A stretch of DNA of 59,264 nt. Source: a virus. Shown one piece after another: positions 1,271 to 59,245 of this stretch. The notes beneath the pieces are model-generated. The model searched no databases. It was not told where the DNA came from and saw nothing but the letters and a program-made list of their open reading frames with translations. The stretch lies in IMG/VR virus record IMGVR_UViG_3300036832_000931, positions 1 through 59,264 of that record; one strand, given 5' to 3'. Position 1 is the stretch's first letter. Each line of letters begins with the position of its first letter. A program made the translations under genes and the position numbers.

Positions 1271-1295
1271 GTTTCACCGCTACTGCGCGGGAACC
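1271..1295 (-). repeat. Hairpin repeat, upstream of the secreted protein
   Basis: CCGC/GCGG class copy between two minus-strand genes, on the transcribed strand, about 20 nt before the ATG at 1252. Confidence 0.9.
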
Positions 1296-1319
1296 CTTAC
1301 TCACATAAATTGTAGATGC

Positions 1320-1526
1320 TCATGCACCGCGGCGCTTCGTGCGGCGAGCTTCCTTATATTGTTTGCCGAGCGTGGACTGGCATTGCTTGCATTTATGCTG
1401 AAAGCCGCGTTGCCTATGCCGATAAAGCTCAAACGCGCTGGTCGGTAGAGTCTTCTTGCATTGATTGCACAGCCGCGTCGTCTCTGTGGAGTAGTCGTCC
1501 CAATTAAACTGGCCGAGATGTATCAT
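1320..1526 (-). CDS. Small treble-clef zinc protein (68 aa)
   Basis: The ATG overlaps the stop of the upstream gene (ATGA at 1526-1523), so it is probably translationally coupled. The protein has CNQC near residue 20 and CKQC near residue 46 with a basic C-terminus. This is the C-x2-C...C-x2-C treble-clef layout of many small phage proteins, some related to HNH nucleases; no HNH residues are visible here. Function unknown. Confidence 0.7.
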   Translation of the reverse strand: MIHLGQFNWDDYSTETTRLCNQCKKTLPTSAFELYRHRQRGFQHKCKQCQSTLGKQYKEARRTKRRGA

Positions 1527-2647
1527 CTATATATACGCCGCTGCTGGTGCGGCTGACGCTTGTGATTCCACCCATGCGGGGCCTTGACCGCACTTACCGC
1601 AGTGGCACCGTTCTGTACGTTTACCGTGGTATACGCATCCGGCCACCCAATCGGCAGGTCATTCCCCTGCGACAATCCACACGTATAGGCCGTCGCTGTT
1701 AGGACATGGGTACCATTGTTGACCTTTACCGTCGTATCCCACATCCACGGCCCCTGCCCCGGACTACAGGTCAGAAAGCCCATGTCGCTGCTGAGACAAG
1801 CGTAAAAACACACACCAGGATTACCGGAATGTGCCAACTCTACCTTTACCTGACCAGAGACCGTCGTACCTTGTTTGGGACTGCTTATATACAGCGCCGG
1901 CAGCCACGGCTTCTCTGCCATCAGCTGATGTACCCGGTCGATATACGGTAGCGCCCCCTCGTCATACCAGTTACCGCTGTACCAGCTACCCAGACAGCCA
2001 TCACTCATCTCCTGCGCCGTACCGTTGGGATATTGCGGATAACCATGACCCGGAACCTTATCCCCGTAATACTTGATCTCCCCGTTCATACACGCCCGCC
2101 AGTACGAACCCCTGAAGTCGAGCGCGAACGGAGTGCTCTCATACGCCATCGGACACGCATTATAGTTGGTACATTTGATCTGAATTATGCTGTATGACGT
2201 GTAGCAGTAGCCTGCCGGTTGCCACGCATCAAAGCCGTTTCCTCCCGTACAGAGGTCGTGCTCGAACTCGTCGTCCCCCTTGACCGACTGATTCCACCCA
2301 CTCTCATTCCACGCCTGCGCCCTTAACTGCTCTACATCCATCCCCCACTTACACGCCGCCCACTGTATGACCTCGTCGGTGGTCCCCCTGAAGTTCCCAT
2401 CGACGCGAAAAAAGGAAGATGCCGGAGGACCATTAAATTGTAACGGGTTGGCGTAGAACGGCGCTAATTCCCCCGTCGTCGGTATCCGCTGATTGTAAGG
2501 ACTGTTCTGCCCCTTGGTCTCCGGCCGGGGCTGTACCTTGGCCGCACATTCCGCCCCCGACGGTAATGCCCCATTAGGCGGTACAAACTGTGCCCACGCT
2601 CCACTCGCGGTTAACAATAATACCGCGATTATCGCCAGTATCCTCAT
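1523..2647 (-). CDS. Secreted lytic transglycosylase-like protein
   Basis: Start chosen at ATG 2647, behind GGGGAGGGCAGCA; the longer frame only adds repeat-derived residues. Residues 1-19 (MRILAIIAVLLLTASGAWA) form a clear Sec signal peptide. Around residues 108-120, LRAQAWNESGWNQ resembles the catalytic-Glu region of SLT/goose-lysozyme-like folds (A-x-ESGWNP), with E115 the candidate acid. Many Cys and aromatic residues follow, and residues about 270-350 (SPKQGTTVSGQVKVEL) look like an Ig-like beta domain. It may act on peptidoglycan in the periplasm, at lysis or as an exported factor. It overlaps the 68-aa gene by 4 nt. The domain calls are by eye. Confidence 0.7.
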   Translation of the reverse strand: MRILAIIAVLLLTASGAWAQFVPPNGALPSGAECAAKVQPRPETKGQNSPYNQRIPTTGELAPFYANPLQFNGPPASSFFRVDGNFRGTTDEVIQWAACKWGMDVEQLRAQAWNESGWNQSVKGDDEFEHDLCTGGNGFDAWQPAGYCYTSYSIIQIKCTNYNACPMAYESTPFALDFRGSYWRACMNGEIKYYGDKVPGHGYPQYPNGTAQEMSDGCLGSWYSGNWYDEGALPYIDRVHQLMAEKPWLPALYISSPKQGTTVSGQVKVELAHSGNPGVCFYACLSSDMGFLTCSPGQGPWMWDTTVKVNNGTHVLTATAYTCGLSQGNDLPIGWPDAYTTVNVQNGATAVSAVKAPHGWNHKRQPHQQRRIYR

Positions 2648-2673
2648 TGCTGCCCTCCCCTTTGCCGAGCTTC

Positions 2674-2700
2674 GTTTCACCGCTTTATTACGCGGGAACC
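2674..2700 (-). repeat. Hairpin repeat holding a stop codon
   Basis: CCGC/GCGG copy of 27 nt. Its loop supplies the TAA of the gene at 2688-2864, which therefore ends Val-Pro-Ala. Confidence 0.9.
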
Positions 2701-2864
2701 TTGGTCTTACGCTCCTCGTCATTGATGCGCTGGTCTATACCCGCCATCCGGTACCCCAACTGATTTAAATACTTGTACAGCCGCAGACGCTGCAGCTCCC
2801 CCGCATCCTCCACCCACACCCTCATCAACTCCTCATCCGCCTTATCAATCTGCTGCCAGCTCAT
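2688..2864 (-). CDS. Small hypothetical protein (58 aa)
   Basis: ATG at 2864 follows a GGGGGG ribosome site; the longer frame to 2957 has no support. The protein is charged, probably helical, with no recognised domain. Its last residues (KVPA) and stop are encoded by the hairpin repeat at 2674-2700. First gene of the leftward group running to base 1. Confidence 0.6.
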   Translation of the reverse strand: MSWQQIDKADEELMRVWVEDAGELQRLRLYKYLNQLGYRMAGIDQRINDEERKTKVPA

Positions 2865-2918
2865 AACGGCCCCCCTGCTTATTTTGTACTCCTCTACAGG
2901 GGCGGTGAAAATGAACGC

Positions 2919-2947: not shown

Positions 2948-2957
2948 GTTGATGCAT

Positions 2958-3446
2958 GGTTCCTGCGTACTACGGCAGTGAAACTTATTCGGGTTCTCGC
3001 GTATCAGCGATGAAACCTTCGTCGACAATGTCACGGTTCCTGCGGTTGAGCAGTGAAACTCAGCGCGCTCCCGGCTCCTGCGTATCAGCAGTGAGACCCT
3101 TCGCTTTTGTTCATCGGTTCTCGCGTACCCAGCGATGAAACTTTTGAAACTGGATGGTTCCTGCGTGTTAGCAGTGAAACGCTTCCTGGGGCGGCGAACG
3201 GTTCTCGCGTATTCAGCGATGAAACTCGCAAGCTTAACTCCCCGGCTCCCGCGTACCGGCGGTGAGACCCTTCGTCGCTTATGGTTCCTGCGTTTGAGCG
3301 GTGAAACTGATGCCGACGCGAAATGTTCTACTCGGTTCCTGCGTGTTAGCAGTGAAACCCTGATCCAGTCAAAATGTCGGTTCTCGCGTACTTAGCGCTG
3401 AAACTGATGCGCGCCTCGATGGCTCCTGCGTTACCAGCAGTGAGAC
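2958..3446 (+). repeat. Array 1: 12 CRISPR-like hairpin repeats
   Basis: Twelve units of 25-27 nt start at 2958, 2992, 3035, 3073, 3116, 3156, 3200, 3244, 3283, 3334, 3379 and 3421. All point the same way and are separated by unrelated spacers of 7, 18, 13, 18, 14, 19, 18, 14, 26, 20 and 16 nt. The inner stem is CTGC/GCAG (2958, 3035, 3073, 3156, 3334, 3421), TCGC/GCGA (2992, 3116, 3200) or CCGC/GCGG (3244). Unit 3283 pairs with one G-U, and 3379 has one mismatch. Units 3073, 3244 and 3421 change the outer stem from GGTTC/GAAAC to GGCTC/GAGAC, which keeps pairing. Unlike a classical CRISPR, spacers are short and uneven and repeats vary in sequence but not in structure. Open frames across it are incidental. 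Confidence 0.9.
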
Positions 3447-3954: not shown

Positions 3955-3980
3955 ATTATAGGCTTCCCTTATACTTTACT

Positions 3981-4006: not shown

Positions 4007-4028
4007 CAAGCTTTTAGGAGATAAGGGA

Positions 4029-9207: not shown

Positions 9208-9209
9208 TT

Positions 9210-9353
9210 ATGTCGCTTAGTGAGTACCTCGATGCGCGATTACGTCGAGCCGAGATCGAAATCATTATTGCCACCATCATGATTGTCGGGCTGGGCGATG
9301 CTGCGTTGTTCTGGGGGCTCTCGATACTTCTGCAACACAAGTTTCACTGCTAA
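9210..9353 (+). CDS. Single-pass membrane peptide (47 aa) ending in a repeat
   Basis: ATG 9210 starts 2 nt after the DUF1874 stop. One membrane helix (IIIATIMIVGLGDAALFWGL). The last four residues (KFHC) and the TAA come from the minus-oriented hairpin repeat at 9341-9365, one of few copies opposed to local transcription. Confidence 0.5.
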   Translation: MSLSEYLDARLRRAEIEIIIATIMIVGLGDAALFWGLSILLQHKFHC

Positions 9354-9365
9354 TGCGCAGGAACC
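9341..9365 (-). repeat. Hairpin repeat opposed to local genes
   Basis: CTGC/GCAG copy on the minus strand within the rightward gene cluster; it supplies the end of the gene at 9210-9353. Confidence 0.9.
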
Positions 9366-9726: not shown

Positions 9727-9986
9727 AATACTTACGCGCAAGCTCTGACGGCATGTGGATGTTGTTCTTCCCCGTCCTATCGCTCTTCTTCGTGATCTTC
9801 ATCCTCGTTATTACCGATGATGACGGCGTCTCGCGCAAACAGGAGGTTAAAGCGTGCGACATTGCCGTGCAGCAGCTGATGACCACTCATGATCTCGTCG
9901 AACTCCAGCGCGATGAATGGCTGATACATCACTTGCGTTGTTGGGTCACTCGGCGCGCAGTGCCGATACTGGTTCCTGCGAAATGA
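9723..9986 (+). CDS. Membrane protein (87 aa), stop in a repeat
   Basis: One N-terminal membrane helix (MLFFPVLSLFFVIFILVI), then a soluble region with two Cys. The C-terminus VPAK and the TGA are read from the hairpin repeat at 9971-9996. Last small gene before the TnpB-like gene, 39 nt away. Confidence 0.5.
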   Translation: MKYLRASSDGMWMLFFPVLSLFFVIFILVITDDDGVSRKQEVKACDIAVQQLMTTHDLVELQRDEWLIHHLRCWVTRRAVPILVPAK

Positions 9987-9996
9987 GCAGTGAAAC
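9971..9996 (+). repeat. Hairpin repeat upstream of the TnpB-like gene
   Basis: CTGC/GCAG copy, loop GAAATGA. It ends the preceding gene and lies 29 nt before the TnpB-like start, after which AATAAGGGA gives a ribosome site. Confidence 0.9.
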
Positions 9997-10025: not shown

Positions 10026-11444
10026 ATGAGAAAAAGGAAAAGAGACTGGCCGATGAGGGTGATCAAGATTCGTGCGTATCCGAGAGTGATCCCGGATAGC
10101 GTCTGGGCGATCGCGAAGGACCAGAGAAAGCTGTGGAATGATTTGACCAGTATGTGGAAGGCGACCGCTGATCTGGCGGCCAACCTGCCTGAGCAGAAAA
10201 AAGAAATGTGGAAACAGTTTGAGGACTGGGCGGCAGCGGCCGTTAAACTGTCCGGCCTCGACTGGGTTAATGGACCGGATATTTTAGATAGATTGCGTGC
10301 TACCACGCGCTCGCGCAAACAGGCTCCACGCTTTCATGGTGCGCTGCAAAGGGTGTCGATCGGGCACAGATATACCGGCGGCGGGAAGGCTCTGGAGGAG
10401 GTGATTGATCCAGGCGTTCAGGTCAGACGATTCGCCTTGGTCTCATCGAAGGACTGGATCGCCTCGCAGCGCTCACAGATCGGTCAGCATTCGCCCAAGC
10501 GCAAGCATTGGCGCGGCCGCTTCCAGGTCGGTGAAGAGACGATTGAGTACTCGTTGGCGCTTCATCGCGAGCTGCCTGAGCGCGCGATTTTGAAGCGTGT
10601 GGCATGGCTGGGTGAGCGCAGTGGCCCGACATGGTTTTGGTACTTGGCGCTCACGGTGGAAGAAGAGCCGGTACAAGGTTCCTGCGTGACGACGAGCAGT
10701 GAAACTACAAGCTCTGCCGCTATCGACCTGGGCTGGCGGTTATTTGCCGATGGGACCAAACAGGACCGGCTGCGGGTCGGCATGCTGGCTGATTCCGAGG
10801 CGCGCATGATCGAGCTGCGGTTGCCGCTGCGCCTGCGGCCTAACCGCGTTCAGGAACAGCGCGGGCTGGATACCATCGCACAGTGGCAGGCCGAGGCTTC
10901 CAAGCTCGACAAGAGCTCTGACGAGTACCGCATGCTCACCCGCGAGATGAGACAGTTACGCTTTCGCTTAATCCAAAGGCGCAGATGGTACTACCTCAAT
11001 CTCGCCAACTGGCTCTGTCAGCGATACAAGCGGATTGCGCTCGAGGATATGAGCATCAAGGATCTGCATCGTAAGCCGGATGATCCCGCCTTGCAGAATA
11101 GCGCGCAGTATCGCAATTACGCGGCGATTGGGGAATTCCGTGCCCTGCTCCTGCGCACCGCCACCAAATACGGCTGCGAGGTCATTCCCGTCGATTCGAT
11201 TGACTCGACCAGGACGTGCTGGGAATGCGGAGCCAAGGCCGAGGCGAGTGGGCACCTGACGCTTAAATGCGAGAACGGGCACGAATGGGATCAGGATAAA
11301 AACGCCGCTCGTAATCTGTTCTCGCAACTGGAGGGGACTTTCGGGCAGACACACAGTTTGCGAAAAATAACGACTACTGGTAAGTGGAAACGATTGGAGT
11401 TGCCGGAGTCTATTGGAGCGGTTGCAGTTGAGGTTCCTGCGTGA
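10026..11444 (+). CDS. TnpB/Cas12-like RuvC nuclease (472 aa)
   Basis: ATG 10026 follows TTAATAAGGGAATACTCTA. The C-terminal half is a RuvC domain with all three acidic motifs: AAIDLGW (D234), IALEDMS (E340) and WDQDKNAARN (D424). A zinc ribbon sits between the last two (C398, C401, C415, H419), as in TnpB and type V (Cas12) effectors. The N-terminal half (1-215) would be the RNA/DNA-recognition part. D-L-G-W-R in motif I recalls the compact Cas12m/V-U group, but the subtype is uncertain. No TnpA transposase or IS ends are nearby. Two repeats touch the gene: one in frame at 10677-10705, encoding residues 218-227 in the linker before RuvC-I, and one supplying its stop (VPA, TGA). Array 2 follows directly, as an omega-RNA follows tnpB. 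Likely RNA-guided nuclease; guide source unproven. Confidence 0.85.
   Translation: MRKRKRDWPMRVIKIRAYPRVIPDSVWAIAKDQRKLWNDLTSMWKATADLAANLPEQKKEMWKQFEDWAAAAVKLSGLDWVNGPDILDRLRATTRSRKQAPRFHGALQRVSIGHRYTGGGKALEEVIDPGVQVRRFALVSSKDWIASQRSQIGQHSPKRKHWRGRFQVGEETIEYSLALHRELPERAILKRVAWLGERSGPTWFWYLALTVEEEPVQGSCVTTSSETTSSAAIDLGWRLFADGTKQDRLRVGMLADSEARMIELRLPLRLRPNRVQEQRGLDTIAQWQAEASKLDKSSDEYRMLTREMRQLRFRLIQRRRWYYLNLANWLCQRYKRIALEDMSIKDLHRKPDDPALQNSAQYRNYAAIGEFRALLLRTATKYGCEVIPVDSIDSTRTCWECGAKAEASGHLTLKCENGHEWDQDKNAARNLFSQLEGTFGQTHSLRKITTTGKWKRLELPESIGAVAVEVPA
10677..10705 (+). repeat. Hairpin repeat inside the TnpB-like gene
   Basis: 29-nt CTGC/GCAG copy read in frame as GSCVTTSSET. It falls in the linker directly before RuvC motif I, where extra residues should be tolerated. 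Confidence 0.9.
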
Positions 11445-12003
11445 TGAGCAGTGAAACCGATAAGCAGAGCATCGCAGGCAACCGGTTCTCGCGGTTGCAG
11501 TGGAGGTTCCTGCGTGACGAGCAGTGAAACTTGGGTACGGCGACTTCGATGAAGTACAAATCAAAGGTTCCTGCGTTACCAGCAGTGAAACAGGCCATCA
11601 GGAGTTCCTCGATTTTCTCGCAGCCCTGAGTTGCAGTAGAGGTTCCTGCGTAATGAGCAGTGAAACTACTAATCCTGCTCAGTGCGGCCTGCGAATGAGC
11701 ATTGAGGTTCCCGCGTACGGGCGGTGAAACAATGAACAAACAGTTTCGATCAAGATTGTCATCACAGTTGGTGGTTCCTGCGTAATGAGCAGTGAAACAG
11801 CTGGAGATCACGCAGCTTGAGGTTCGTGCGTAAGGGCGCTGAAACTAGAAGCACAAGATGGTTCGCGCGTAAGGGCGCTGAAACTCATACACGGTCGAAT
11901 CGGTTCCCGCGTACTGGCGGTGAAACAGAGAGCCGTTTCAGGGTTCCCGCGTGTGGGCGGTGAAACAGGAGAAATGAGGTTCCTGCGGATACAGCAGTGA
12001 AAC
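11432..12003 (+). repeat. Array 2: 11 CRISPR-like hairpin repeats fused to the TnpB-like gene
   Basis: Units start at 11432, 11505, 11566, 11641, 11706, 11773, 11821, 11860, 11902, 11942 and 11978, all on the plus strand. A decayed half unit lies at 11484. Spacers are 47, 35, 49, 39, 42, 22, 14, 17, 15 and 11 nt, so they shorten along the array. Inner stems: mostly CTGC/GCAG, CCGC/GCGG at 11706, 11902 and 11942, GCGC/GCGC at 11860, and GTGC/GCGC (one G-U pair) at 11821. The first unit holds the TGA of the TnpB-like gene, so gene and array are probably one transcript. The array ends at the convergent stop of the gene at 12006-12197. Confidence 0.9.
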
Positions 12004-15913: not shown

Positions 15914-17099
15914 TAACTCGCCCCTCCCCAGCGTCTGGTATAGTTTCATCCACCGGTTCCTGCGTGGAAGCAGTGAAACGTTCTGGCTCATGCTCATCAC
16001 GCGCAGCGCTGTAGATGTATCGAGCGTAGTACTTGAACACGGTCTCAAGCCGATCGCCCATCAGCTCCGCGACCTGACCAGGGGTTAGCCCTTGCTCGAA
16101 ACAGTCCACGGCGAACGAATGCCTCATGACGTTCGGAGCTCGATACTTCAGCCCCGTCGCCTTGAACATCGGCCGCCAGTTGCGGTTGGTCCAGTTCTGC
16201 AGATTGAGACGTGCCCCTCGACGACCACGGAAGATCAGGCCCGTTTCATCGATCGGGATGTCTAACCGGCTGAGCACGGCCATGAGCCGTGCCGCGTTTC
16301 TCGGGGGCAGCTTTACAGTACGATGTGCGCGTTTCGTCTTGGTTCCTCGTATCGTAGCCCACTTCCCAGTGTCAGGAAGATCTTCCCGCAGAAGACCCAG
16401 CACCTCCGACGGTCGAGGCCCCAGGGCAAAGCCCAGTTCCACGATCGACCAGTCTTGGACGGTCTTGGCTACCGCCGACAGCTTCAACTGATCGGCCGGT
16501 GGAATGGGATCGATCTCCTCAGTCGCGCCTGAGGGCGGGTTCTCGATAAACTTCATCGGGTTTTTGCTGATCACCTCATCCGCTTCAAGCATCAAGAAGA
16601 TCTTCCGCAGCCGCTGAATGAACTGAGCTATCAGCCGATCCGGCTTGCCGGGGCGGTCTGACCGCCGCTCTACCCCATCGATCGCAGCCTGGATGTCCTT
16701 ACGCATAATCTCGCGCACGTCCATCTCCCCCAGCGCGGTGCCGTCGAGAAAGCGGCTGAACAAATACTCAACCCCCTTCGTCGTCTTTGCGCTTCTATAC
16801 TTCTGGGTATTCAGCCACTGCCGAGCTACGACGCGAAGAACCATAACGGGAGCAGCCGCCGCTTCCGCCTCTGCCACAGCCTTCAGCGCTTTGGCCGCCA
16901 TCGAATTGGGGAAGAATTCTTCAAGTGTGAACGTACCCTCCTTGATCGCATGGGTGACCCGCCGCTCAAGCGACGCGTACTGGCGACGATTCTCTTTGGT
17001 TGCACGCACGCCCTTGCCGACGCTGGGCCGATAAACCTTGCCCTGCCAGCGGAACTCCAGACACAGCCGGTTACGATTGCCTTTGATAAGTGATGCCAT
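15891..17099 (-). CDS. int: Tyrosine-type integrase (402 aa)
   Basis: Residues 1-50 form an arm-site binding domain (DUF3596-like), about 85-185 the core-binding SAM-like domain, and 205-365 the catalytic domain. Catalytic landmarks: GPRPSE (R229), K254/K256 on the beta hairpin, MRHSFA (R326, H327), and VFKYYARY with the nucleophile Y357 or Y358. Length is typical. The tail carries an antisense hairpin repeat (15955-15979), read as RFTASTQEP (374-382), which lengthens the C-terminus after the nucleophile helix. Catalyses site-specific insertion of the phage into the host chromosome. Confidence 0.93.
   Translation of the reverse strand: MASLIKGNRNRLCLEFRWQGKVYRPSVGKGVRATKENRRQYASLERRVTHAIKEGTFTLEEFFPNSMAAKALKAVAEAEAAAAPVMVLRVVARQWLNTQKYRSAKTTKGVEYLFSRFLDGTALGEMDVREIMRKDIQAAIDGVERRSDRPGKPDRLIAQFIQRLRKIFLMLEADEVISKNPMKFIENPPSGATEEIDPIPPADQLKLSAVAKTVQDWSIVELGFALGPRPSEVLGLLREDLPDTGKWATIRGTKTKRAHRTVKLPPRNAARLMAVLSRLDIPIDETGLIFRGRRGARLNLQNWTNRNWRPMFKATGLKYRAPNVMRHSFAVDCFEQGLTPGQVAELMGDRLETVFKYYARYIYSAARDEHEPERFTASTQEPVDETIPDAGEGRVNDDRLDV
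15955..15979 (+). repeat. Hairpin repeat antisense within the integrase gene
   Basis: CTGC/GCAG copy on the strand opposite to the integrase mRNA, in frame and without a stop in the integrase reading frame. Confidence 0.9.
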
Positions 17100-17151: not shown

Positions 17152-17176
17152 GTTTCACTGCTAATACGCAGGAACC
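17152..17176 (-). repeat. Hairpin repeat abutting a repressor-like gene
   Basis: CTGC/GCAG copy; its first G is the G of the TAG stop of the gene at 17176-17424. It lies 53 nt upstream of the integrase start. Confidence 0.9.
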
Positions 17177-20626: not shown

Positions 20627-20866
20627 ATGAAAATCCCATCAGAGGAACTCGATATTATCGCGACCACCGTCGCTGAGATCGAACAGATCCTAAAAGGAAA
20701 AGGGTCCGCTATGCAGGGGGCAATCCTGGGCGATCTGCTCGCGACATGGCTGCACGGTCATAGCGACGTAGATGATGATCCAGTCAAGACAGCAGAAGTG
20801 CGCGATGAGCTACTCGCGGTACATATCAATTATGTCAAGCTGCTGGTGGCAGCGAACGACCTATAG
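20627..20866 (+). CDS. Small hypothetical protein (79 aa)
   Basis: ATG 20627 follows GGGGATAGAG. Helical and acidic, no family recognised. Its TAG shares the G with the first base of the repeat at 20866-20890, the same abutment seen at 17176, 36814 and others. Confidence 0.6.
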   Translation: MKIPSEELDIIATTVAEIEQILKGKGSAMQGAILGDLLATWLHGHSDVDDDPVKTAEVRDELLAVHINYVKLLVAANDL

Positions 20867-20890
20867 GTTCCTGCGTGTGAGCAGTGAAAC
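20866..20890 (+). repeat. Hairpin repeat between small gene and methyltransferase
   Basis: CTGC/GCAG copy starting on the last base of a TAG stop and ending 16 nt before the methyltransferase ATG. Confidence 0.9.
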
Positions 20891-21821: not shown

Positions 21822-21907
21822 AACATCAAGCTGAGCACTGCGCCTTAAGGTTTTTTTCTTAAAGCGCATGTACAATCGAACAGGTTCCTGCGTACCAGCA
21901 GTGAAAC
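21800..21907 (+). repeat. Two hairpin repeats after the methyltransferase
   Basis: Copies at 21800-21824 (loop ATGTGA, supplies the methyltransferase stop) and 21883-21907. Between them, 21839-21866 holds a different 10-bp hairpin, GCGCCTTAAG/CTTAAAGCGC, with T7 in its loop. Confidence 0.88.
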
Positions 21908-36564: not shown

Positions 36565-36814
36565 GTTTCACCGCTGTTACGCGGGAACCGTCGTGCTATG
36601 TGCCTCGATGAATTTAACGCCCAGAAGAGGAACCCCGAGGCTCCGAACTGGCGTCGTCCGGTCGGGTTACTCGCGACTTTAACGCGACCTGTGCGAGTGG
36701 CTACCTTTGCGAAGAGTAGCAGGTCTAAATTTTTCTATAGACGCAACTAACTACTAAGTCAATATATCTTGACTGTCAGTCATCCCACGTTTCACCGCCG
36801 TAAACGCGGGAACC
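36565..36814 (-). repeat. Two hairpin repeats flanking the capsid leader
   Basis: Copies at 36565-36589 and 36789-36814 (both CCGC/GCGG). The second begins on the G of the TAG of the gene at 36814-37074. The 200 bp between them hold no supported gene. Confidence 0.9.
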
Positions 36815-38187: not shown

Positions 38188-38254
38188 GTTTCACCGCTGT
38201 TACGCGGGAACCATGTCGTCTTCTTACAGTTTCACTGCTTTATACGCAGGAACC
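38188..38254 (-). repeat. Two hairpin repeats between ATP-grasp and scaffold-like genes
   Basis: 38229-38254 (CTGC/GCAG) begins 1 nt after the TAA at 38256; 38188-38212 (CCGC/GCGG) precedes the AAGGAG site of the next gene. 16 nt separate them. Confidence 0.92.
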
Positions 38255-40058: not shown

Positions 40059-40561
40059 TAGCTTAGTTCCTCTTTCAATTGCCTCACCGCTGATACGCGG
40101 GAGTCTTCCTCGAAGCGGACGTGATGATGAAGGCTCCAGAAACCGGTCGTTTCCAGTGCCTGCTGATGACCGTCACCGGGGCGCAGGATCGGCCCGAAGA
40201 CCTCAGCCAATATGTAACGCGCCTGTTCGAAGTGCTCCGGTGACCATGAGCAGGTAGCCAACCACCCTTCTTCCGGCACCTCAAGCTTATATTTGCCTTG
40301 CTTCGCAGGACCGTCATCGACGGGAGTGTGACCGAGCAGTTCGAGCACAGCGGCTGAGCCGTGCCACACCGGTCTTTTCTTGTTCCACGTCTCAAGCATG
40401 AAGATGAGATGCCACGGTCCCATCTTCCAACGATATTCATCGACTATCGCCATGTTGCGATCGTACGCGGGGAAGCGCTGTGCAATCGCACGCTGCTTGG
40501 CGCACTTCTTCTTGAAGGACTCGATGTCCCACTTAGCTATAAAGTCGAGGCCAGTAACCAT
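40058..40561 (-). CDS. Hypothetical phage protein (167 aa)
   Basis: Start at ATG 40561 (a TTG 9 nt upstream is possible). Trp/His-rich (WKMGPWHLIFMLETW, FWSLHHHVRFEEDSR). No family recognised. Near its C-terminus a degenerate repeat is read in frame as DSRVSAVR. Confidence 0.55.
   Translation of the reverse strand: MVTGLDFIAKWDIESFKKKCAKQRAIAQRFPAYDRNMAIVDEYRWKMGPWHLIFMLETWNKKRPVWHGSAAVLELLGHTPVDDGPAKQGKYKLEVPEEGWLATCSWSPEHFEQARYILAEVFGPILRPGDGHQQALETTGFWSLHHHVRFEEDSRVSAVRQLKEELS
40081..40105 (-). repeat. Degenerate hairpin repeat in coding sequence
   Basis: Inner stem CCGC/GCGG intact; outer arms GACTC and GAGGC only partly pair. Confidence 0.75.
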
Positions 40562-40579: not shown

Positions 40580-40605
40580 GTTTCACCGCTCTAAACGCGG
40601 GAACC
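40580..40605 (-). repeat. Hairpin repeat encoding a C-terminus
   Basis: CCGC/GCGG copy read as GFPRLER and TGA at the end of the gene at 40583-40792. Confidence 0.9.
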
Positions 40606-40792: not shown

Positions 40793-41415
40793 CGCGGTTG
40801 CTCGTCGACTACTTGCGCCAACCCCATCGCTTCAGAGAGCGACGATGCGCCTGCTGCTGCATGACCATTAGTCACTGGTGGAGCGAACATTTCCGGCTGC
40901 GTCGGCGCTGCCAATGCCGGAGCCGGTGCGAGTGAACGATCCATACGATCCTCAGCTTCGATCTGGTTGGCCAAGGGCTGATGCAGACGACAGTACCAGC
41001 TACCGGTGCGGTTGAACTGGCTGGGCTTGGTCTTGTAGATGCCCTGTCGCCCGCAATGGACACAGGGATTGGTCACAACTGCTGATGCTGCTGGAGTCTG
41101 ATGCGTTTCACCGCCGATACGCGGGAACCCGGCTGTATTTAGACCAGCTGCCACCAGCAGCGTTCTGACCTCGTCCAGTTTACGGGCGCAGACCATAAGC
41201 GCCGCAGCCTTCATCGCTTCGCTGAAACCCTGCTCATAGATCTGTTTCGCCGAGCGCTGGATTTCCATATCCAGCGACATTTGCCGGCGTCGGCGACGGC
41301 GCTTCGGCTTATCCACGCGGTCTAAACGTTTCACTGCTGTATACGCAGGAACCTCACCGGGGTCTAAACGGGTCGTGGTACGTGCGCGCCTGCTGCTGAA
41401 ATTGTTTTCTTCCAT
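40789..41415 (-). CDS. Hypothetical protein with two repeat insertions (208 aa)
   Basis: Start at ATG 41415, inside the end of the upstream gene (62-nt overlap); no strong ribosome site. Basic N-terminus (KRRRRRRQ), a middle helical region, then CVHCGRQG...WYCRLH, a likely zinc site. Repeats at 41328-41353 (read as VPAYTAVK) and 41105-41129 (FPRIGGET) lie between these parts, as linkers. Confidence 0.5.
   Translation of the reverse strand: MEENNFSSRRARTTTRLDPGEVPAYTAVKRLDRVDKPKRRRRRRQMSLDMEIQRSAKQIYEQGFSEAMKAAALMVCARKLDEVRTLLVAAGLNTAGFPRIGGETHQTPAASAVVTNPCVHCGRQGIYKTKPSQFNRTGSWYCRLHQPLANQIEAEDRMDRSLAPAPALAAPTQPEMFAPPVTNGHAAAGASSLSEAMGLAQVVDEQPR
41105..41129 (-). repeat. Hairpin repeat in coding sequence
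   Basis: CCGC/GCGG copy, read as FPRIGGET. Confidence 0.9.
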
Positions 41416-41879
41416 GATCCGCCAGTTCACTTCGTAAGATGTAGTCGTCCTCTTCGCACATGCCGCCGTGTTCCCAAGTGGAGAGCGGGTCGCGCGTCCA
41501 CATTGGGTTGCGGCAGTTGTGGCACCTCGTTGCAATCCACGGAGCAGTCAGTGGCGTACCGGGTCGTTCACTGGCTATTCGCCACCGCCGCCGATCAATC
41601 GGAGCTGGGTGCATCGGGGGGCCGTCGATAATCGAGACGAGCGGCGTTTCACTGCTCTTATACGCAGGAACCTCTGCAGTCGTGCCACTGCTTCCATCGC
41701 TAAGTTTCACTGCTGTTTGCGCAGGAACCTCTTGTCCCATCGTCCTGATGCCATGCCCTCGTGCCCACTTCTGCCATGTACGCCTGCCACAGCCGCATGC
41801 ACACAAATTCGGTGGTTCTGATGGTGGCGGCGCTGAGCGTTTCAGTTTCACTGCTTCATCCGCGTCATCCGCAGGAACC
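41328..41879 (-). repeat. Four hairpin repeats within two overlapping genes
   Basis: Copies at 41328-41353, 41646-41672, 41704-41729 (all CTGC/GCAG) and 41845-41879. The last has a 35-nt length because its loop carries a near-duplicated GGATGA block, while both arms are intact. Confidence 0.9.
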
Positions 41880-47200: not shown

Positions 47201-47991
47201 GTTTCTCGTCGCGCCGCCTCATCGGCACTTTGAGTCGCTTTGGTGAAGCGGTCACGGGCTTTCGCTGAAGCTGCCTCCATCTCAGGCCTCAAGGTGCCTT
47301 CGCCACCAAACATACTTTCAGCTTTCGGGACGCCATAGGCTTCGATTCCCATTGGCACACCCAAACCCGCCACCAAGCCTGCCCCTTCAGCAACCATTGG
47401 ATGATTCGGGAATAGCGCGTGAGCCCCTTCCTGAGCTAGTTGCGAACCCTTTACAGAGGCGACCACTGAGCCCGCACCAAGAGCTTTCTGCGCGATCTTG
47501 GGTCCGGCCTTTTCGACTGCCTGCAGTGTGCCTTCATGTCGTAAACCAAGGTTTTCCAACCATCGGCGGGCAGTGGGACCAGTCATAGCTTCCAACACTG
47601 ACTTGGCAGCTGGTTTTACCACTGCCTCTCCTGCTTCTCCTAACTCCCCTACCTCTCCACCGGGAATCAGTAACGAGGCTAAGGCCGTGTAATAGGGATG
47701 CCGATCCATCCAGTCGGTGACTTTCTTGCCCTGCCGATTCACATAATCGTAGGCTGTGCCCACGGGCGAATTGCGGACAGCATTGAACTGAAACGGGTCC
47801 ACGTTCATTAAGTACGCGAGCGGTGCCGGTATAAACTGGTCCTGCGTCTGATGCTTAAACTCGGCTTCTTCCGGAGCAGTGAACCCTGATCGCGGCGGTT
47901 TTGCTGCTGGTTTCACCGCTGTTTCGCGGGAACCTGAATCACTCGCCGGCGGAGCATAAGGGACGGCGTCATCGGGTACTGGAATTGGCAT
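44293..47991 (-). CDS. Large internal virion (DNA-ejection) protein (1232 aa)
   Basis: Mostly helical and coiled coil (residues about 240-370 very rich in Glu/Lys/Ala/Gln), with two hydrophobic stretches near 960-1000 (GIWALVDIAMPMMSRFSGFA, LTGFGAFTGLVPGEMMYRGL) that could cross a membrane. Size and place beside a transglycosylase-bearing gene fit T7 gp15/gp16-like or P22-like ejection proteins. Two hairpin repeats are read in frame (47910: GSRETAVK; 44762: GSREEAVKG). The long frames on the other strand are shadows. Confidence 0.65.
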   Translation of the reverse strand: MPIPVPDDAVPYAPPASDSGSRETAVKPAAKPPRSGFTAPEEAEFKHQTQDQFIPAPLAYLMNVDPFQFNAVRNSPVGTAYDYVNRQGKKVTDWMDRHPYYTALASLLIPGGEVGELGEAGEAVVKPAAKSVLEAMTGPTARRWLENLGLRHEGTLQAVEKAGPKIAQKALGAGSVVASVKGSQLAQEGAHALFPNHPMVAEGAGLVAGLGVPMGIEAYGVPKAESMFGGEGTLRPEMEAASAKARDRFTKATQSADEAARRETESQQDKAVGAGQRAQDKAEAARTKFVEKATDERQTALDKQREDAAKVTFGKAEAEHAQRQAAAAEEEQIKTDEQAARDKHATKYRKEAAKDAIQQEVDEANQDRKGKPVFDNTMPSGPLRSLRDRIFRRATKAPVTAYRENWRSERDQAIPDTIKDERPTNYDPLIRKMDEEQNEQRDEQGNVIAPEWKNRPVNPKVRGFFDRVRSLVAPTDADVLAAQGKSPQEVRNFLAQAEKEAAVDRTRAYDPAEQAQYDSMVGHRFEPKTPEQAHAKILERRYALSPARWEIEQAHAAHPPASIRDLLKVQREAKGLILRERDPTNQVAIEAINDGIDDNIKAHVDSLPPERAGEANLQRLQELNEEYFNHRNNFTPALERRLNQFERPVDASNVLLTQHPQAALELIQHSKLAADDGFGTRMELRDQIAANVKENGPQWINNVDQKILDELFPETSDLRNKDSWIRNDKNIKAAAAAIEANPRLKQSFLNDVMQDVGDRNRRLADITVKLARRDAHLLGPALERQLKFRIRSAEEAPPDVLIRERVGSNAELAARKASEFIAGAEQTHALQQQPPIPDTVENQLKQQPPEIQNPDLARQQAEAAYPQQTTAREQAAAAREEPRLAPPGGVQGLPDTRDNLQRRLDPSGGGGGSPEPMTRQEALESGAAVQNFQRGYKERQFFTRWKNRAGIWALVDIAMPMMSRFSGFALTGFGAFTGLVPGEMMYRGLREAMAKDPILAQDVEHILRNPTPYLSRPNALTRAIGRSIIAEGLAKTQVDQEILDEYERGASLSRAVEKYSVNAASATSGSREEAVKGNRHPEIWGTPTPLFPTPSPSPGPGVSAADRMRSENVAPSRSSADSAQKLAMNVSKPTSPVDVSRDLASGRHSVDEVRKTLQFHNDPKATDVLAGMPLTDAMMATELASPEERPMLMQVLQTRLRQELPQVKNKTTQANLTKRMKQLQSMGETAVA
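44762..44786 (-). repeat. Hairpin repeat in ejection-protein gene
   Basis: CCGC/GCGG inner stem; 3' end GAAAG instead of GAAAC. Confidence 0.8.
47910..47934 (-). repeat. Hairpin repeat in ejection-protein gene
   Basis: CCGC/GCGG copy near the N-terminus, read as GSRETAVK. Confidence 0.9.
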
Positions 47992-50816
47992 CAGCCTGCT
48001 GCCTCCGAACCGGTGCGCTCTGAATCAAGATGCATGACTCCGCCCTTGACCCATCCGCTGCCTTTGGTGGGGCTGTGTACATATGTCCACCCGCCAGCAT
48101 TATCCGGTGGCTCCGGTGTACCGGGAGGATGCGGTGGCCCTGCTGCTGCCGCTTTGGGTGGTGGTATGTGGATGTTTAGGCCCGGATTGTCATACCCTTG
48201 GCCGTTGTTAAGAGCATCAGCCATCTTGTTGGCCTCATTCAACGGCATGTTGTACTGCTGTCGGTGACCGGGAGGTCCGACAAGTACAGTTCGCCTTGGC
48301 CCGCCGGGAAGATACCTCTCCGCGAATCCAGGCGTGGTCGGCGATAGCACAGTTACGTTCGGTGCTACTTGAACGGGGAGAACTCCACTTGAGGGTTTGC
48401 TTTGCTGGATCTGCTGTCCCGCTTTTCTATCGATAGACTCCTGAATCTGTGCCGGTGTGGCTATCGTGTATGGATAAGGCGGATTGAAGTTCTCACCGGG
48501 CTTTATCCAAATCCCATGTGAATCACTCGAATCGTCCTTATTGGTGACGATAAGGTGCGTCCAGCCTTTGTACCCGGCTGCCTCTGCTTGTGCGTTACGT
48601 TCCTTGGTCTCAGCTTCCAGTGCTGCTTTCCGTGTGGGTACAAGTCCTGTGTTCGCTTGGTTGAGGGCTGCGGCAGACGTATTCCTCGCTGCTATTGTCG
48701 GCTGGACTCCAGCCTCTGCCCCGGCGAGCGTGCCCTGCTGTTTGTGCATCCAGTTGGTTACGAGGTCATTCCGGCTGTTGCGGAAATACTCCATCTGATC
48801 CTTAACCGGCATATCTGACAGAGCTGCGGCATAGAGGCCACTCGCCAACTCTCGCTGTTCCGGTGTTGCATCGGGATTTTGCGATATCGGAGCCCAGACA
48901 TCAGTGGCCATCCGCCTGCCAGCGGTAATCTCCTGCGCCTGCTGCTGATGTAATCCCGCCTCCGCGTAGGACGCTTGGGTCTGAGCTCGCTTCAGCGGCA
49001 GGTCGGCGAGTGACTCATATGCCTTGAGTTCCTCATCGGTCAGCTTTGCCTGCTGTGCTTCCGCCTCACTAAAGCCCTTCAATCCGGTCAGCCCACCGAT
49101 GCCAAGTCTACCCATCGGGCTGGTGTGCTTGGGTGCCGAGATCCCGCCAAAGTAGGCACTCAGCGCACCCTGCATGAGCGGGTTGTTGAGGAAGTTACTG
49201 ATCTTGTCGAGTGTCGGGAAACCGCTCGAGTGCGACCCGAAGCTCTGAGAAATTAAGTCTTCGAGATGCTGCTCATACGGATCCTGACTGCCGCCAGCAC
49301 CCGCACCGTCAATGGGAGCCGCGCTGGGATCCTGAACGTTATGCATCTGCATGACGTGTTGAAGGAGATTCGTGTTGCTCGTTGTATCGGGAGCACCTGC
49401 TGCTGGTGCTGCACCAGACGCTGGAGCGGCTCCTGCTGCCGGTGGAGCAGATGGATCTGCCGCAACCGGTGCTGCCGGGTCTGTTGCCGCAGGCGCAGCG
49501 GAAGTAGCTGTCGTAGCGTTTACACCGCTATTAACGCGGGAACCTGTTGCTGAAGGATCTGCTGGCGCTACTGCCGCTGCGGGTGCTGCTGCAGTAGCCG
49601 GTGCGCCACCTGCGGGTGGTGCGGTACCACCGCCGCCATCGGTAGGCGGACGTAGTTTCTCACCTCGCGCGATCGCGTTCCGCAGCCGGTCGTTGTAGGG
49701 AACCCAGGGTTTCAGTCCCTGTTCCTTGTACATCGCGTGTGCGACTCGTGTCTGATCTTCAGGACTCGCATCCATTGCATTTTTTGCGAGCTGCCCCGGA
49801 TTAGTCCGCGACTGGATGTTCATCCCCTTCGAGTAGTGATTCCAGTTGCTGTCGGTGATCTGGAACAGTCCACCCGCGGTGCGGCCTTTAGCCCCATAGA
49901 GATAATTCGGCACATAGGGACGGAAGTCGCTCTCGTAATAAGCGGCCAAGCCGAGGTCGTTGTATGCCTTATCGGACATACCCGGAAGCCGCGGGATCGC
50001 ACCGATTGGACCGAGACCGCCGCTGCCTGATGGTGGTGTAGATGCCGCAGGAGCTGGAGTAGCACCGCTATCAGGAGCAGGAGCTGCCGCTGCAGCTGCA
50101 GCATCTGCAGGTACCTTTCGTCTCACTGCTGGTGACGCAGGAGCCTTGCCTGCCACAACCTTCATATCATCGGGGGTGAGAGTCGATGGCAGTCCGGGCA
50201 TCAATTCCGCCGGTATTGCCGATGGTGTACCACCGTCCACGCGACCCGAGATCGCAGACAGCTTTGCCGCTGCTGGATCAGTTGCACCACCACCAGCTGC
50301 CGCGGCCATCGCGGACAATCCAGGCATGTCATAATTTGCACCGGGATCATCGGTTGGCATACGATTCGCCAGCGCCGCCAACTGCGGCATGTTGTAGCCA
50401 GCGCCGGGAGTCAGATCTGCCCCTGCCGTTGAGCCGCTGACATCGTTTGCCGTTGCCGCCATCGCCGGTATGTCGTAATTAGCGCCGGTGTTTACACCGC
50501 CATTACGCGGGAACCCTTTTGTTGCAGGTTTGGACGATTTCATGCGATTAGCGATCACCGCCAATTTGCGCATGTCCAAATTCGCGCCCGGAGTAGGGGG
50601 AGTTGGAGGAGCCACCGCATCGCCCGCGGTGTCTGCGTTCGCTGCACTCAGATCGACTTTCGCACCTGCTGGATTAAACGCGCTAGTTGCTCCACCACCA
50701 CCTAAAGCCCTAGCCGGTGGAGTCAATGGCGACGGCGTCAGTCGAGAGAGCGGGGAGCCTTGGTTATAGCCCTGAATCGCATTGAAGATCGCAGCGAGCT
50801 CGTCGGTGATTGCCAT
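47991..50816 (-). CDS. Internal virion protein with lytic transglycosylase domain (941 aa)
   Basis: Residues 1-270 are Ala/Pro/Gly-rich with repeated ANYDMPxLxAMA words (four copies). About 285-385 is an SLT/lysozyme-like domain: LAAYYESDFRP with the candidate catalytic Glu, GAKGRTAGGLFQITDSNW, and AHAMYKEQGLKPW. A second Ala/Pro-rich part follows, then a helical C-terminal half. Virion transglycosylases open the cell wall during DNA entry. Three repeats are read in frame (50490: FPRNGGVNTG; 50120: APASPAVRR; 49518: GSRVNSGVN), all in low-complexity regions. Confidence 0.78.
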   Translation of the reverse strand: MAITDELAAIFNAIQGYNQGSPLSRLTPSPLTPPARALGGGGATSAFNPAGAKVDLSAANADTAGDAVAPPTPPTPGANLDMRKLAVIANRMKSSKPATKGFPRNGGVNTGANYDIPAMAATANDVSGSTAGADLTPGAGYNMPQLAALANRMPTDDPGANYDMPGLSAMAAAAGGGATDPAAAKLSAISGRVDGGTPSAIPAELMPGLPSTLTPDDMKVVAGKAPASPAVRRKVPADAAAAAAAPAPDSGATPAPAASTPPSGSGGLGPIGAIPRLPGMSDKAYNDLGLAAYYESDFRPYVPNYLYGAKGRTAGGLFQITDSNWNHYSKGMNIQSRTNPGQLAKNAMDASPEDQTRVAHAMYKEQGLKPWVPYNDRLRNAIARGEKLRPPTDGGGGTAPPAGGAPATAAAPAAAVAPADPSATGSRVNSGVNATTATSAAPAATDPAAPVAADPSAPPAAGAAPASGAAPAAGAPDTTSNTNLLQHVMQMHNVQDPSAAPIDGAGAGGSQDPYEQHLEDLISQSFGSHSSGFPTLDKISNFLNNPLMQGALSAYFGGISAPKHTSPMGRLGIGGLTGLKGFSEAEAQQAKLTDEELKAYESLADLPLKRAQTQASYAEAGLHQQQAQEITAGRRMATDVWAPISQNPDATPEQRELASGLYAAALSDMPVKDQMEYFRNSRNDLVTNWMHKQQGTLAGAEAGVQPTIAARNTSAAALNQANTGLVPTRKAALEAETKERNAQAEAAGYKGWTHLIVTNKDDSSDSHGIWIKPGENFNPPYPYTIATPAQIQESIDRKAGQQIQQSKPSSGVLPVQVAPNVTVLSPTTPGFAERYLPGGPRRTVLVGPPGHRQQYNMPLNEANKMADALNNGQGYDNPGLNIHIPPPKAAAAGPPHPPGTPEPPDNAGGWTYVHSPTKGSGWVKGGVMHLDSERTGSEAAG
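49518..50515 (-). repeat. Three hairpin repeats in the transglycosylase gene
   Basis: 49518-49544 and 50490-50515 have 3' ends GTGTAAAC (one base inserted). 50120-50145 has the GGCTC/GAGAC outer-stem change also seen in array 1 at 3073, 3244 and 3421. Confidence 0.85.
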
Positions 50817-51735: not shown

Positions 51736-51760
51736 GTTTCACTGCAATTACGCAGGAACC
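51736..51760 (-). repeat. Hairpin repeat abutting a TAG stop
   Basis: CTGC/GCAG copy; its first G is the G of the TAG at 51760-51762. Confidence 0.92.
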
Positions 51761-54809: not shown

Positions 54810-54834
54810 GTTTCACTGCCGATACGCAGGAACC
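54810..54834 (-). repeat. Hairpin repeat between TGA and ATG
   Basis: CTGC/GCAG copy occupying nearly the whole intergenic gap: it starts right after TGA (54835-54837) and ends 2 nt before ATG 54807. Confidence 0.92.
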
Positions 54835-55982: not shown

Positions 55983-56105
55983 GTTTCACTGCTCTAAACG
56001 CAGGAACCTTACGGTTCGTACGTAACGGCGGTGAAACAAGAGAAGTTTCACTGCTAGTACGCAGGAACCGCCGCCTCATCGTTTCACCGCCCGTACGCGG
56101 GAACC
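55983..56105 (-). repeat. Cluster of four hairpin repeats
   Basis: Minus-strand copies at 55983-56008, 56045-56069 (CTGC/GCAG) and 56081-56105 (CCGC/GCGG), plus a plus-strand copy at 56013-56037 whose 5' arm (GTAC) no longer pairs with its 3' arm. The cluster fills the gap before the Ig-like gene's stop. Confidence 0.88.
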
Positions 56106-56563: not shown

Positions 56564-56628
56564 GTTTCACTGCCACTACGCAGGAACCTTGCTTTGGATT
56601 ATAGTTTCACTGCCCAAACGCAGGAACC
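56564..56628 (-). repeat. Two hairpin repeats after the terminase gene
   Basis: 56604-56628 begins on the G of the terminase TAG; 56564-56588 follows after 15 nt. Both CTGC/GCAG. Confidence 0.92.
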
Positions 56629-58274: not shown

Positions 58275-58294
58275 TTACCTGATTCTCTTCAAGC

Positions 58295-58365
58295 GTTTCA
58301 CTGCCGGTTACGCAGGAACCTAACCTTCACTCATCGCTTCGTTTCACTGCCGATACGCAGGAACC
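58295..58365 (-). repeat. Two hairpin repeats between terminase genes
   Basis: 58341-58365 begins on the G of the TAG of the small-subunit-like gene; 58295-58320 ends 20 nt before the terL start. Both CTGC/GCAG. Confidence 0.92.
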
Positions 58366-58901
58366 TAGTCTATTTTCTCAGCGAGTTTTTCGTCCTCCGC
58401 TGCCAGCTCCTTCAATAATTCACTCATCGCCTCGGGATGGTTACGCAAAGCGCGTTCGATCCGCTCAATCGCCCAGCGCGGGATCCCGCTGGCGTCATGG
58501 CCCATCTCGCGGCGTACCTTGACGATGGAGTCGAGGATACCGCGCAGCGTATCGAGCGCCGACAGGACTAACTTCTCGTCAACGGTAAAGCTCTGTACGT
58601 GCTGCTGGAGGTGAGGATCCCAGACCTTGAGTGCTGATTTACTGTGCTTGGCCCGCCACACGCACATCCGTCCCTCTTGCCAGAGATCGACGAAGCGCTC
58701 GTGAATGTCCGCCCAGTCGAGCTGTTTGCCGTTACGTACCGCGGCGCGGAGCTGGTCACCTTTTATCTTGATGGCGCGGACAGGAGCTTTGGGCGGCGGC
58801 TGCTGACGGAACTTCTCCGCCGTATATTCGTTCGGGACCAGATGCTTTTCAGGTGGCTGCGGCAGCTTGTAGCCGTCTTTTTGTGTTAGTTCGTCAGCCA
58901 T
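58365..58901 (-). CDS. Probable terminase small subunit (178 aa)
   Basis: ATG 58901 follows AAGGTCGGGCATCGT. A basic N-terminus (YTAEKFRQQPPPKAPVRAIK) precedes helices and an acidic C-terminus (LLKELAAEDEKLAEKID). No family motif is clear; the call rests on its position directly upstream of terL and on size. Could also be an unrelated DNA-packaging accessory. Confidence 0.5.
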   Translation of the reverse strand: MADELTQKDGYKLPQPPEKHLVPNEYTAEKFRQQPPPKAPVRAIKIKGDQLRAAVRNGKQLDWADIHERFVDLWQEGRMCVWRAKHSKSALKVWDPHLQQHVQSFTVDEKLVLSALDTLRGILDSIVKVRREMGHDASGIPRWAIERIERALRNHPEAMSELLKELAAEDEKLAEKID

Positions 58902-58916
58902 ACGATGCCCGACCTT

Positions 58917-59031
58917 GTTTCATCGCCAGTTTACGCGAGAACCTCGAGATTACGTCCGTGTTTCATCGCTAATACGCGAGAACCTTTGTTTCGAAACAAA
59001 CTCGGCGTTTCACTGCCTGTACGCAGGAACC
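58917..59031 (-). repeat. Three hairpin repeats upstream of the terminase genes
   Basis: 58917-58943, 58960-58984 (TCGC/GCGA) and 59007-59031 (CTGC/GCAG), spaced 16 and 22 nt: a short third array on the late strand. Confidence 0.9.
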
Positions 59032-59179
59032 TTTAACTTAAGCGCGCCCGTCGGGTTTGTTTCGAAACGTGGGGGTGGATACGTCGTCGCCGGATCTCCC
59101 GACGCACCATTCCCCGGCGGGCGCAAGCTTTATCATCTCATATTGATCCACCATCAGTGAGCATTATAGCCTCCCCAAT

Positions 59180-59245
59180 GTTTCACTGCCGATACGCAGG
59201 AACCTAGCCGTTCGTCAGAAGTTTCACCGCCCTGACGCGGGAACC
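59180..59245 (-). repeat. Two hairpin repeats at the right end
   Basis: 59180-59204 (CTGC/GCAG) and 59221-59245 (CCGC/GCGG), 16 nt apart. If the ends join, the second supplies the stop of the gene cut at base 1. Confidence 0.9.

Follow-up and report, generated by a model that had tools for sequence, protein, structure and literature searches.

A phage genome strewn with covarying hairpins, likely miniature type V-M CRISPR repeats

What are the small hairpins that recur, some 70 times, along the 59,264 nucleotides (nt) of IMG/VR virus record IMGVR_UViG_3300036832_000931 (positions 1-59,264, i.e. the whole stretch analysed, hereafter the window)? An earlier reading of the sequence alone had described them as a family of constant plan and had likened them to the small palindromes of bacteria. 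What is new here is their likely identity as repeats of the type V-M kind. In our view the hairpins are probably miniature repeats of that type of CRISPR (clustered regularly interspaced short palindromic repeats), acting as scaffolds of the CRISPR RNAs (crRNAs) of the phage's own Cas12m-like effector, because of the effector family, the adjoining array, the hairpin architecture, the covariation, the sense orientation, the spacer lengths and the absence of hairpins from the relatives searched.

Searched as a plain pattern, the element gave 64 exact copies, 29 on the plus and 35 on the minus strand, and a backwards control pattern gave none. A fuzzy scan returned 66 copies without mismatch and 3 with one, versus 0 and 0.1 per strand in Markov-shuffled sequence; with two, three and four mismatches (6, 50 and 236 hits versus about 5, 49 and 291 on both strands of the shuffles) it did not rise above the shuffles. 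An alignment of 70 rows, made of the pattern copies without the 35-nt one (66 of 67) and of four near copies chosen by eye from the fuzzy scan, was used to build a covariance model, R1, with which the window was scanned without filters. The model found 71 copies at 29.3-42.4 bits and one decayed copy at 14.9 bits, the noise staying at or below 9.9 bits; the scores of its own 70 rows are high by construction, the gap beneath them is not. The other near copies, with at most two mismatches, were excluded from the alignment and score below this noise line. The earlier claim of about 70 copies on both strands, all of one plan and spanning positions 1271-59245, was therefore correct, as was the length given, since 70 of the 71 copies measure 25-29 nt and one 35 nt. 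The loop size of 5-8 nt has to be revised: loops of the 70 rows have 6 (41 rows), 7 (24), 8 (4) or 10 nt (1), never 5, and that of the 35-nt copy has 16. The loop consensus is G-U-R-N-R.

The hairpin folds as GG, a 7-bp stem with a bulged U, a 6-nt loop and AC, i.e. ..(((((((......)))).))).., and three window copies had fold z-scores of -2.0 to -2.7. Since rows were chosen by motif, the fixed positions are partly so by construction; with the flanks left free, GG..AC still bordered 64 of 162 hairpins of such shape and the next commonest pair of flanks 3. G2 stands opposite A(-2) in 69 of the 70 aligned rows, the pair being swapped to A.G in the remaining one (40081..40105), and C(-1) is present in 67. 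Covariation was computed on the 63 distinct rows, with 500 shuffles and slid structures as controls. Pairing is kept in 98.8% of 504 stem cells (33-50% for the slid structures). Changes on both sides of a pair amount to 40, at three pairs (5, 8 and 27 rows), and the covariation score is 0.220 versus 0.102 in the shuffles; the number of changed cells and the score both exceed all 500 shuffles. Two of the five measures did not go beyond the shuffles: the number of pairs with two-sided change (3) was reached by 63 of the 500, and that of further pair types (5) by 328. The stem that had been said to vary while remaining paired does pair and covary, with the restriction that only two of the four inner pairs vary.

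Three features suggest what such hairpins may be for. The gene was assigned from protein searches and a tree, the arrays were delimited with R1 and gap measurement:

2958..3446, plus strand: array 1, 12 repeats, at the start of the rightward gene block
10026..11444 (open reading frame, ORF, 10026-11441), plus strand: gene for a Cas12m-like (type V-M / V-U1) effector of 472 amino acids (aa)
11432..12003, plus strand: array 2, 11 repeats

Compared with solved structures (PDB), the product of the gene matched best a Cas12m (2.1e-20, in two stretches) and then another Cas12m (7.7e-11), followed by the TnpB-like protein L79 (5.4e-8) and ISDra2 TnpB (0.003). PADLOC returned Cas12u1 (3e-33) and then a Cas12f-labelled model (1.1e-31), and the same two models lead, with near-equal fit, for full-length Cas12m; V-U1 is now named V-M (PMC11013384). 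In Pfam the match was Cas12f1-like TNB (7.9e-11). A 14-row tree placed the protein with six Cas12m, apart from seven TnpB, with a support of 100/99. Foldseek, run on its AlphaFold model, ranked Cas12m first to third at a TM of about 0.37, a low-confidence model that allows ranking only. The RuvC residues D, E and D are present, by eye, in the alignment. Judged from its sequence, ORF 10026-11441 thus appears to encode a divergent Cas12m (type V-M) effector. An IS605 / IS200-IS605 TnpB was rejected, the protein searches leading to Cas12m and the tree grouping it there, though on a long branch. Two early ideas about the hairpins, IS608-like single-stranded DNA hairpins and mimics of type I-F/I-E repeats (alike in stem and GUA loop), were dropped once the protein searches pointed to Cas12m. 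No close relative of the effector was found in viral contigs, with its own sequence as query, or in phage records by tblastn; plasmids gave weak matches, mostly annotated as TnpB.

In the crRNA of Cas12m2 the protein contacts C(-1) and a non-canonical G(-23):A(-2) pair; the Watson-Crick helix runs from -3 inward, and the A preceding the G is flipped out (PMC10442227). The window hairpins end in the same manner, with stem II, G.A(-2) and C(-1), in the proportions given above; a repeat of ~36 nt with a stem I was not found in them. Two viral contigs with Cas12m (L084 and L085; L086 has the same length and match) each have, 41 bases downstream of the effector gene, an array of 36-nt repeats. Both repeats fold as stem I, AG, stem II, AC, with a 3' core of 25 nt, stem II having 8 bp and a 5-nt loop in L084 (z -3.2) and 7 bp and a 7-nt loop in L085. 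Among 27 cores of one L084 array, picked by AG/GG..AC, two-sided changes occur at two of the stem II pairs. The descriptor R-G-7bp-loop-7bp-A-C found 64 U-bulged hairpins in the window versus 1.3 in shuffles, and 3 versus 2.0 in the element-free relative G149; in the array-carrying records G349 and G350 it found 26 and 28 unbulged hairpins, with 3 and 6 outside arrays (5.3 and 2.0 in shuffles). No repeat array was found within positions 2500-5800 of the Manganitrophus plasmid sequence (L083) that holds a Cas12m gene. The array at 7132-9480 of L084 is regular in one half; in the other the repeats have diverged and are unevenly spaced, as though decay or shortening had begun. Another Cas12m contig (L088, G352) carries at 3788-7890, on the minus strand, nine copies of a different hairpin of ~46 nt with varying stems, between genes; its form is TGACGCTCAACAG..stem..CGATTGAACGCCACCAC, and all nine begin with TGA (as letters, not read in frame).

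By effector and repeat core the window system would belong near type V-M (Cas12m2, GoCas12m; L084, L085, L089) and would work like it. Shared are the family of the effector, an array placed immediately 3' of its gene, two-sided changes in stem II and, with L084 and L085, a repeat whose 3' core consists of two purines, stem II, loop and A-C; the window differs in its shorter, U-bulged repeats, in its spacers, mostly of 11-22 nt, in the 48 copies lying outside the two arrays and in the size of the effector.

As in V-M loci the array adjoins the effector, the first repeat of array 2 overlapping the stop codon of the gene. Its spacers measure 47, 35, 49, 39, 42, 22, 14, 17, 15 and 11 nt, with start-to-start distances of 73, 61, 75, 65 and 67 and then of 36-48. 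The array looks as if a normal V-M array had shortened, the early periods being close to those found where the L084 and L085 arrays are regular (71-77) and the later ones not. In array 1 the spacers are of 7, 18, 13, 18, 14, 19, 18, 14, 26, 20 and 16 nt. The two to three arrays announced earlier are exactly two, the remainder being close pairs, seven in number, with mostly short spacers. Neighbouring copies are less than 80 nt apart in 31 cases, and 21 of these gaps are of 11-22 nt (7 of 10 outside the arrays). In Cas12m2, 17 bp of guide pair with the target, which is also the guide optimum (PMC10442227). That arrays and close pairs are sources of crRNA is the plain reading of this arrangement.

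The unusual part is the 48 copies outside the arrays. They are listed below with the decayed copy. All were located with R1; orientation was used in addition for the three called antisense to a gene or gene block, comparison with relatives for the two at element-free junctions, and a scan of stop codons for all those at a stop.

1271..1295, minus strand: dispersed hairpin
2674..2700, minus: dispersed
9341..9365, minus: antisense to gene block
9971..9996, plus: before effector gene
10677..10705, plus: in effector gene (32.7 bits)
15955..15979, plus: antisense within integrase gene
17152..17176, minus: at stop codon
17684..17709, plus: dispersed
20866..20890, plus: at stop codon
21800..21824, plus: C5-methylase gene end
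21883..21907, plus: dispersed
33337..33361, plus: antisense to gene block
36565..36589, minus: upstream of major capsid gene
36789..36814, minus: at stop codon
37089..37114, minus: at stop codon; junction element-free in L039-L041
37391..37416, minus: inside ORF 37114-38187
38188..38212, minus: second of close pair
38229..38254, minus: at stop codon; junction element-free in L039, L041, L042
39562..39587, minus: at stop codon
40081..40105, minus: swapped purine pair (A.G)
40580..40605, minus: dispersed
41105..41129, minus: inside ORF 40789-41535
41328..41353, minus: at stop codon
41646..41672, minus: inside ORF 41354-42064
41704..41729, minus: inside ORF 41354-42064
41845..41879, minus: inside ORF 41354-42064, 16-nt loop
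44763..44787, minus: inside ORF 44293-47991, last base changed
47910..47934, minus: inside ORF 44293-47991
49519..49544, minus: inside ORF 47991-50816, 3' end changed
50120..50145, minus: inside ORF 47991-50816
50491..50515, minus: inside ORF 47991-50816, 3' end changed
51736..51760, minus: at stop codon
52563..52587, minus: at stop codon
53695..53719, minus: dispersed
54810..54834, minus: at stop codon
55686..55710, minus: dispersed
55983..56008, minus: dispersed
56013..56037, plus: decayed antisense copy
56045..56069, minus: close pair
56081..56105, minus: close pair
56564..56588, minus: close pair
56604..56628, minus: at stop codon, close pair
58295..58320, minus: close pair
58341..58365, minus: at stop codon, close pair
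58917..58943, minus: run of three
58960..58984, minus: run of three
59007..59031, minus: run of three
59180..59204, minus: close pair
59221..59245, minus: close pair

With gene-block limits set by ourselves, 45 of the 48 dispersed copies are sense to their own gene block (P = 1.3e-10), the exceptions being those at 9341, 15955 and 33337. Twelve start no more than 2 bases from the stop of an ORF (ORFs of at least 50 codons, taken mechanically); when placed at random 300 times, 0.8 did so on average and never more than 5. At least 11 lie inside six ORFs, further copies in ORFs without homologs not being counted; they are read through in all three frames, at spots that are poorly conserved where homologs align. 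Copies between genes, at stops and inside genes had indeed been reported. The sense bias and the copies at stops would also be expected if the hairpins were sites at which the effector docks on, or cuts, the phage mRNAs, to process or control gene junctions, guides mattering in the arrays only. One copy lies within the effector's own gene, and Cas12m cuts pre-crRNA without RuvC (PMC11013384), both of which agree with this. We nevertheless hold it to be unlikely: cutting at the 11 or more copies inside ORFs would destroy the message, and processing alone has no need of gaps outside the arrays that are, in 7 of 10 cases, spacer-like in length.

The position after stop codons could be explained, too, by hairpins acting on transcription or mRNA stability (nut-like antitermination or protective 3' hairpins) and bound by another phage protein. 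The loop consensus resembles that of boxB-type loops, GNR(N)A, and the TGA-starting hairpins of G352 form a second family that might be of such a kind. Arrays of 12 and 11 copies with short spacers, copies inside ORFs and a specific match to the G.A(-2) and C(-1) of the Cas12m crRNA are not expected of regulatory hairpins, which makes this explanation very improbable.

Are the hairpins found elsewhere? A search with the capsid protein gave 25 loci, from which the element-free relatives were drawn. As the sequence-only reading had proposed, related phages were scanned with the covariance model: none of 12 whole records (28-85% capsid identity, nine of them at 66-85%) had a copy, nor had the 25 capsid-protein loci and MW202512, where the best match, in L058, was of 13.1 bits. 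At two gene junctions the relatives have a few bases from stop to start and the window has one or two hairpins. Phage relatives searched by megablast of 20 kb gave no match, and none were found with a 1231-aa protein. In viral contigs scanned by pattern there were 30 stretches with a single copy each. A stricter pattern picked 3 stretches from genome_contigs, two with one copy and one with two; under stricter filters, 1 of 145 genomes of the class of the latter was positive, by the same contig. This contig (L035), of 3183 bp, belongs to a metagenome-assembled genome of Candidatus Binataceae; its two copies stand 75 bp from each other and share the strand of an excisionase-like gene that lies upstream of them (phrog_66, 9.2e-4). 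The contig may be viral and might be related to the phage or to its host. The element pattern therefore does not match unrelated genomes equally often, the matches being confined to scattered stretches of one or two copies.

Absence from the searched relatives, and presence at junctions that are nearly empty there, would fit selfish miniature palindromes spread by a transposase and unrelated to the effector. REP/REPIN and Rickettsia palindromic elements are small palindromes lying between and within genes. The presence of copies in all three ORF frames agrees with this, and the base preceding the dispersed copies, which is A in 33 of 48 cases, might reflect a preferred site of insertion. Selfish elements would hardly be sense in 45 of 48 cases or form spaced arrays, and no Y1 (HUH) transposase was found among the proteins scanned (part of the ORFs). 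Nor do the hairpins behave as copied elements: pairs of copies with identical 6-nt loops number 16 (13.0 expected, P = 0.21) and with identical 7-nt loops 3 (2.4 expected), and 1 copy of 72 is decayed. As the loops show no signal of descent, the copies are either old and under selection or were made with a varied loop. We regard selfish spread as quite improbable; in the earlier comparison with REP/BIME and Rickettsia palindromes the structural reading was right, while the Cas12m-like gene before array 2 and the match to the V-M core had been overlooked.

Solitary CRISPR repeat units and mini-arrays of viruses (Racr; PMC10651486, PMC11656645) resemble the window in having CRISPR-like repeats in a phage outside a full locus. 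One such solitary unit diverts type I-F (PMC10651486), and the hairpins might likewise be RNA decoys that load a V-M effector of the host with useless guides, the phage protein being secondary; many transcribed copies would make many decoys. This we judge hardly probable. The strict scan of genome_contigs gave two single copies and the L035 pair and no host array (the host is not identified), the stems vary whereas a mimic should copy one host repeat, and the phage has its own effector beside an array. The window is further set apart from the described units by its dozens of variable sense copies.

Other systems are alike in part. Type V-M is found on plasmids and in some prophages, and viruses carry mini-arrays and single repeat units (PMC11656645); dispersal of the present kind is not mentioned in the available part of that review. 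The nearest described case of dense phage palindromes that we found is that of Cluster O mycobacteriophages, each of which carries a 17-bp dyad of no known function in more than 30 copies, roughly a third of them in ORFs (PMC4351075). These are likewise numerous, dispersed and in part inside ORFs; they differ in their invariant arms and 3-nt spacer, and neither arrays nor an effector are mentioned in the part of the paper available. The earlier statement that no phage has such a density has to be qualified accordingly, the structure of the dyads being different. TIGR-Tas (PMC12045711) also consists of stem-loop arrays, in phages too, beside an RNA-guided protein, but this protein, Tas, has a Nop domain and the arrays box C/D motifs, where the window has a Cas12m-like effector; no Pfam match to a Nop domain was obtained among the 29 window proteins scanned. 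A literature search retrieved no published description of the hairpins, most subscription journals lying outside its coverage.

Several observations weigh against type V-M repeats as the identity of the hairpins. Their bulged U and lack of a stem I set them apart, and R1 matched no other V-M array, so that the likeness would be one of architecture and not of sequence. Arrays with such a core occur in only 2 of the 5 Cas12m records examined: the L089 repeat ends in A-G and has a 6-bp stem (by eye), and no array was found in L087 or in L088, a contig that ends inside the Cas12m gene. The L085 repeat folds little better than its shuffles (z -1.3). G349 and G350 have no repeat copies outside their arrays, the 3 and 6 other descriptor hits being unlike them in sequence. 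The effector is small and reaches no more than 24-25% identity to other Cas12m (21-25% to the five of viral contigs); its tree branch (1.78), outside the other six Cas12m, was flagged as long and unsure, its AlphaFold model is poor (pLDDT 49.9), and it also matches phrog_506 transposase (1.4e-24) and, below the cut-off, NCBIfam guided_TnpB (2e-18). Spacer length in array 2 is irregular, from 11 to 49 nt, and nothing resembling a promoter was seen ahead of array 1; a promoter and terminator scan of 2500-12300 gave fewer sites than shuffles and was of no use. No protospacer was found in the phage's own genome, in 1.22 Mb of fetched DNA, in phage records (searched with the array 2 spacers, best E 2) or in IMG/VR (searched with two spacers). 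Guides matched the window over 12 nt 7 times and over 13 nt 3 times, against 2.4 and 0.8 in mononucleotide shuffles; these matches fall partly on other elements and are not claimed as targets. In the fetched DNA, 13-nt prefixes of 6 of the 71 guides had a match (2.2 expected from mononucleotide shuffles), which is not convincing. Finally, the A before the dispersed copies (21 of the 36 copies away from stops, P = 6.6e-5; array 2 has it in 7 of 11 and array 1 in 0 of 12) is unlike the T- or C-rich protospacer-adjacent motif (PAM) of known Cas12m (PMC11013384). As this PAM preference is known from other Cas12m and not from the present effector, the A neither helps nor sinks the idea that flanking sequence serves as guide.

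If the hairpins are, as we favour, type V-M-like repeats, they would have been cut down to the structured 3' core, i.e. stem II with its flanking purines and A-C. Arrays and close pairs would be transcribed and then cut by the effector to crRNAs made of the ~25-nt hairpin and a guide of ~16-20 nt, which would direct it to bind the DNA of a competitor or of the host and perhaps also to cut it, the RuvC residues looking intact by eye. A solitary copy might, more speculatively, give a crRNA that takes its guide from the phage sequence downstream of it; the phage genome could escape since what stands there 5' of the guide sequence is the repeat and no PAM, while a relative lacking the element could be attacked at this locus. 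That the dispersed repeats constitute a bank of this sort, turning the native sequence that follows into guides and shielding the phage's own copy by separating it from its former PAM while the effector attacks element-free relatives, seems possible to us but rather doubtful. It would result in exclusion of competitors and, as the phage has a RecT gene, in RNA-guided homing of the 25-bp elements through recombination. Guides from the flank, mRNA processing sites and decoys are three possible uses of the solitary copies, and the sense orientation fits all of them.

Other features of the genome were recorded along the way. Two twister-P5 ribozymes, the sole matches above the Rfam gathering score, lie 342 bases from each other, at 4383-4440 and 4725-4782 (plus strand), in the gene block that follows array 1. 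The stretch separating array 1 from the next gene, 3447-4028 (~580 bases), holds no evident gene and shows short palindromes by eye; a replication or regulatory site might be located there. The product of 8560-9204 (plus) matches Csx16 in its C-terminal half (PADLOC, 3.1e-8), and is weakly STIV B116-like. As Csx16 is listed in the literature alongside ring nucleases of type III CRISPR, a role in counter-defence is possible. A DUF29 protein (8.7e-41) is encoded at 12854-13285 (plus), ORF 7254-7712 being similar by eye, a RecT-family recombinase at 17980-18897 (plus), a C5 cytosine methylase, with hairpins near the start and at the end of its gene, at 20772-21821 (plus), and, at 25543-27999 (minus), a tail fibre that ends in an S74 chaperone and matches Mtd_N weakly (1.2e-4, below the cut-off).

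If our identification is right, only stem II of the V-M crRNA scaffold would be left here, 25 nt where Cas12m2 has 36 nt, and the guides would come close to the length measured as optimal for Cas12m2 (17 bp); hairpin and 472-aa effector may be useful together as a compact tool. It would also be a natural case of CRISPR repeats that left their array and colonised a genome in sense orientation, which raises the question of whether a solitary CRISPR repeat in an mRNA can make a guide from whatever follows it. Guides made in this way would connect viral CRISPR with solitary repeat units and with TnpB-like homing, and it may be that a phage here uses its own genome to store guide RNAs.

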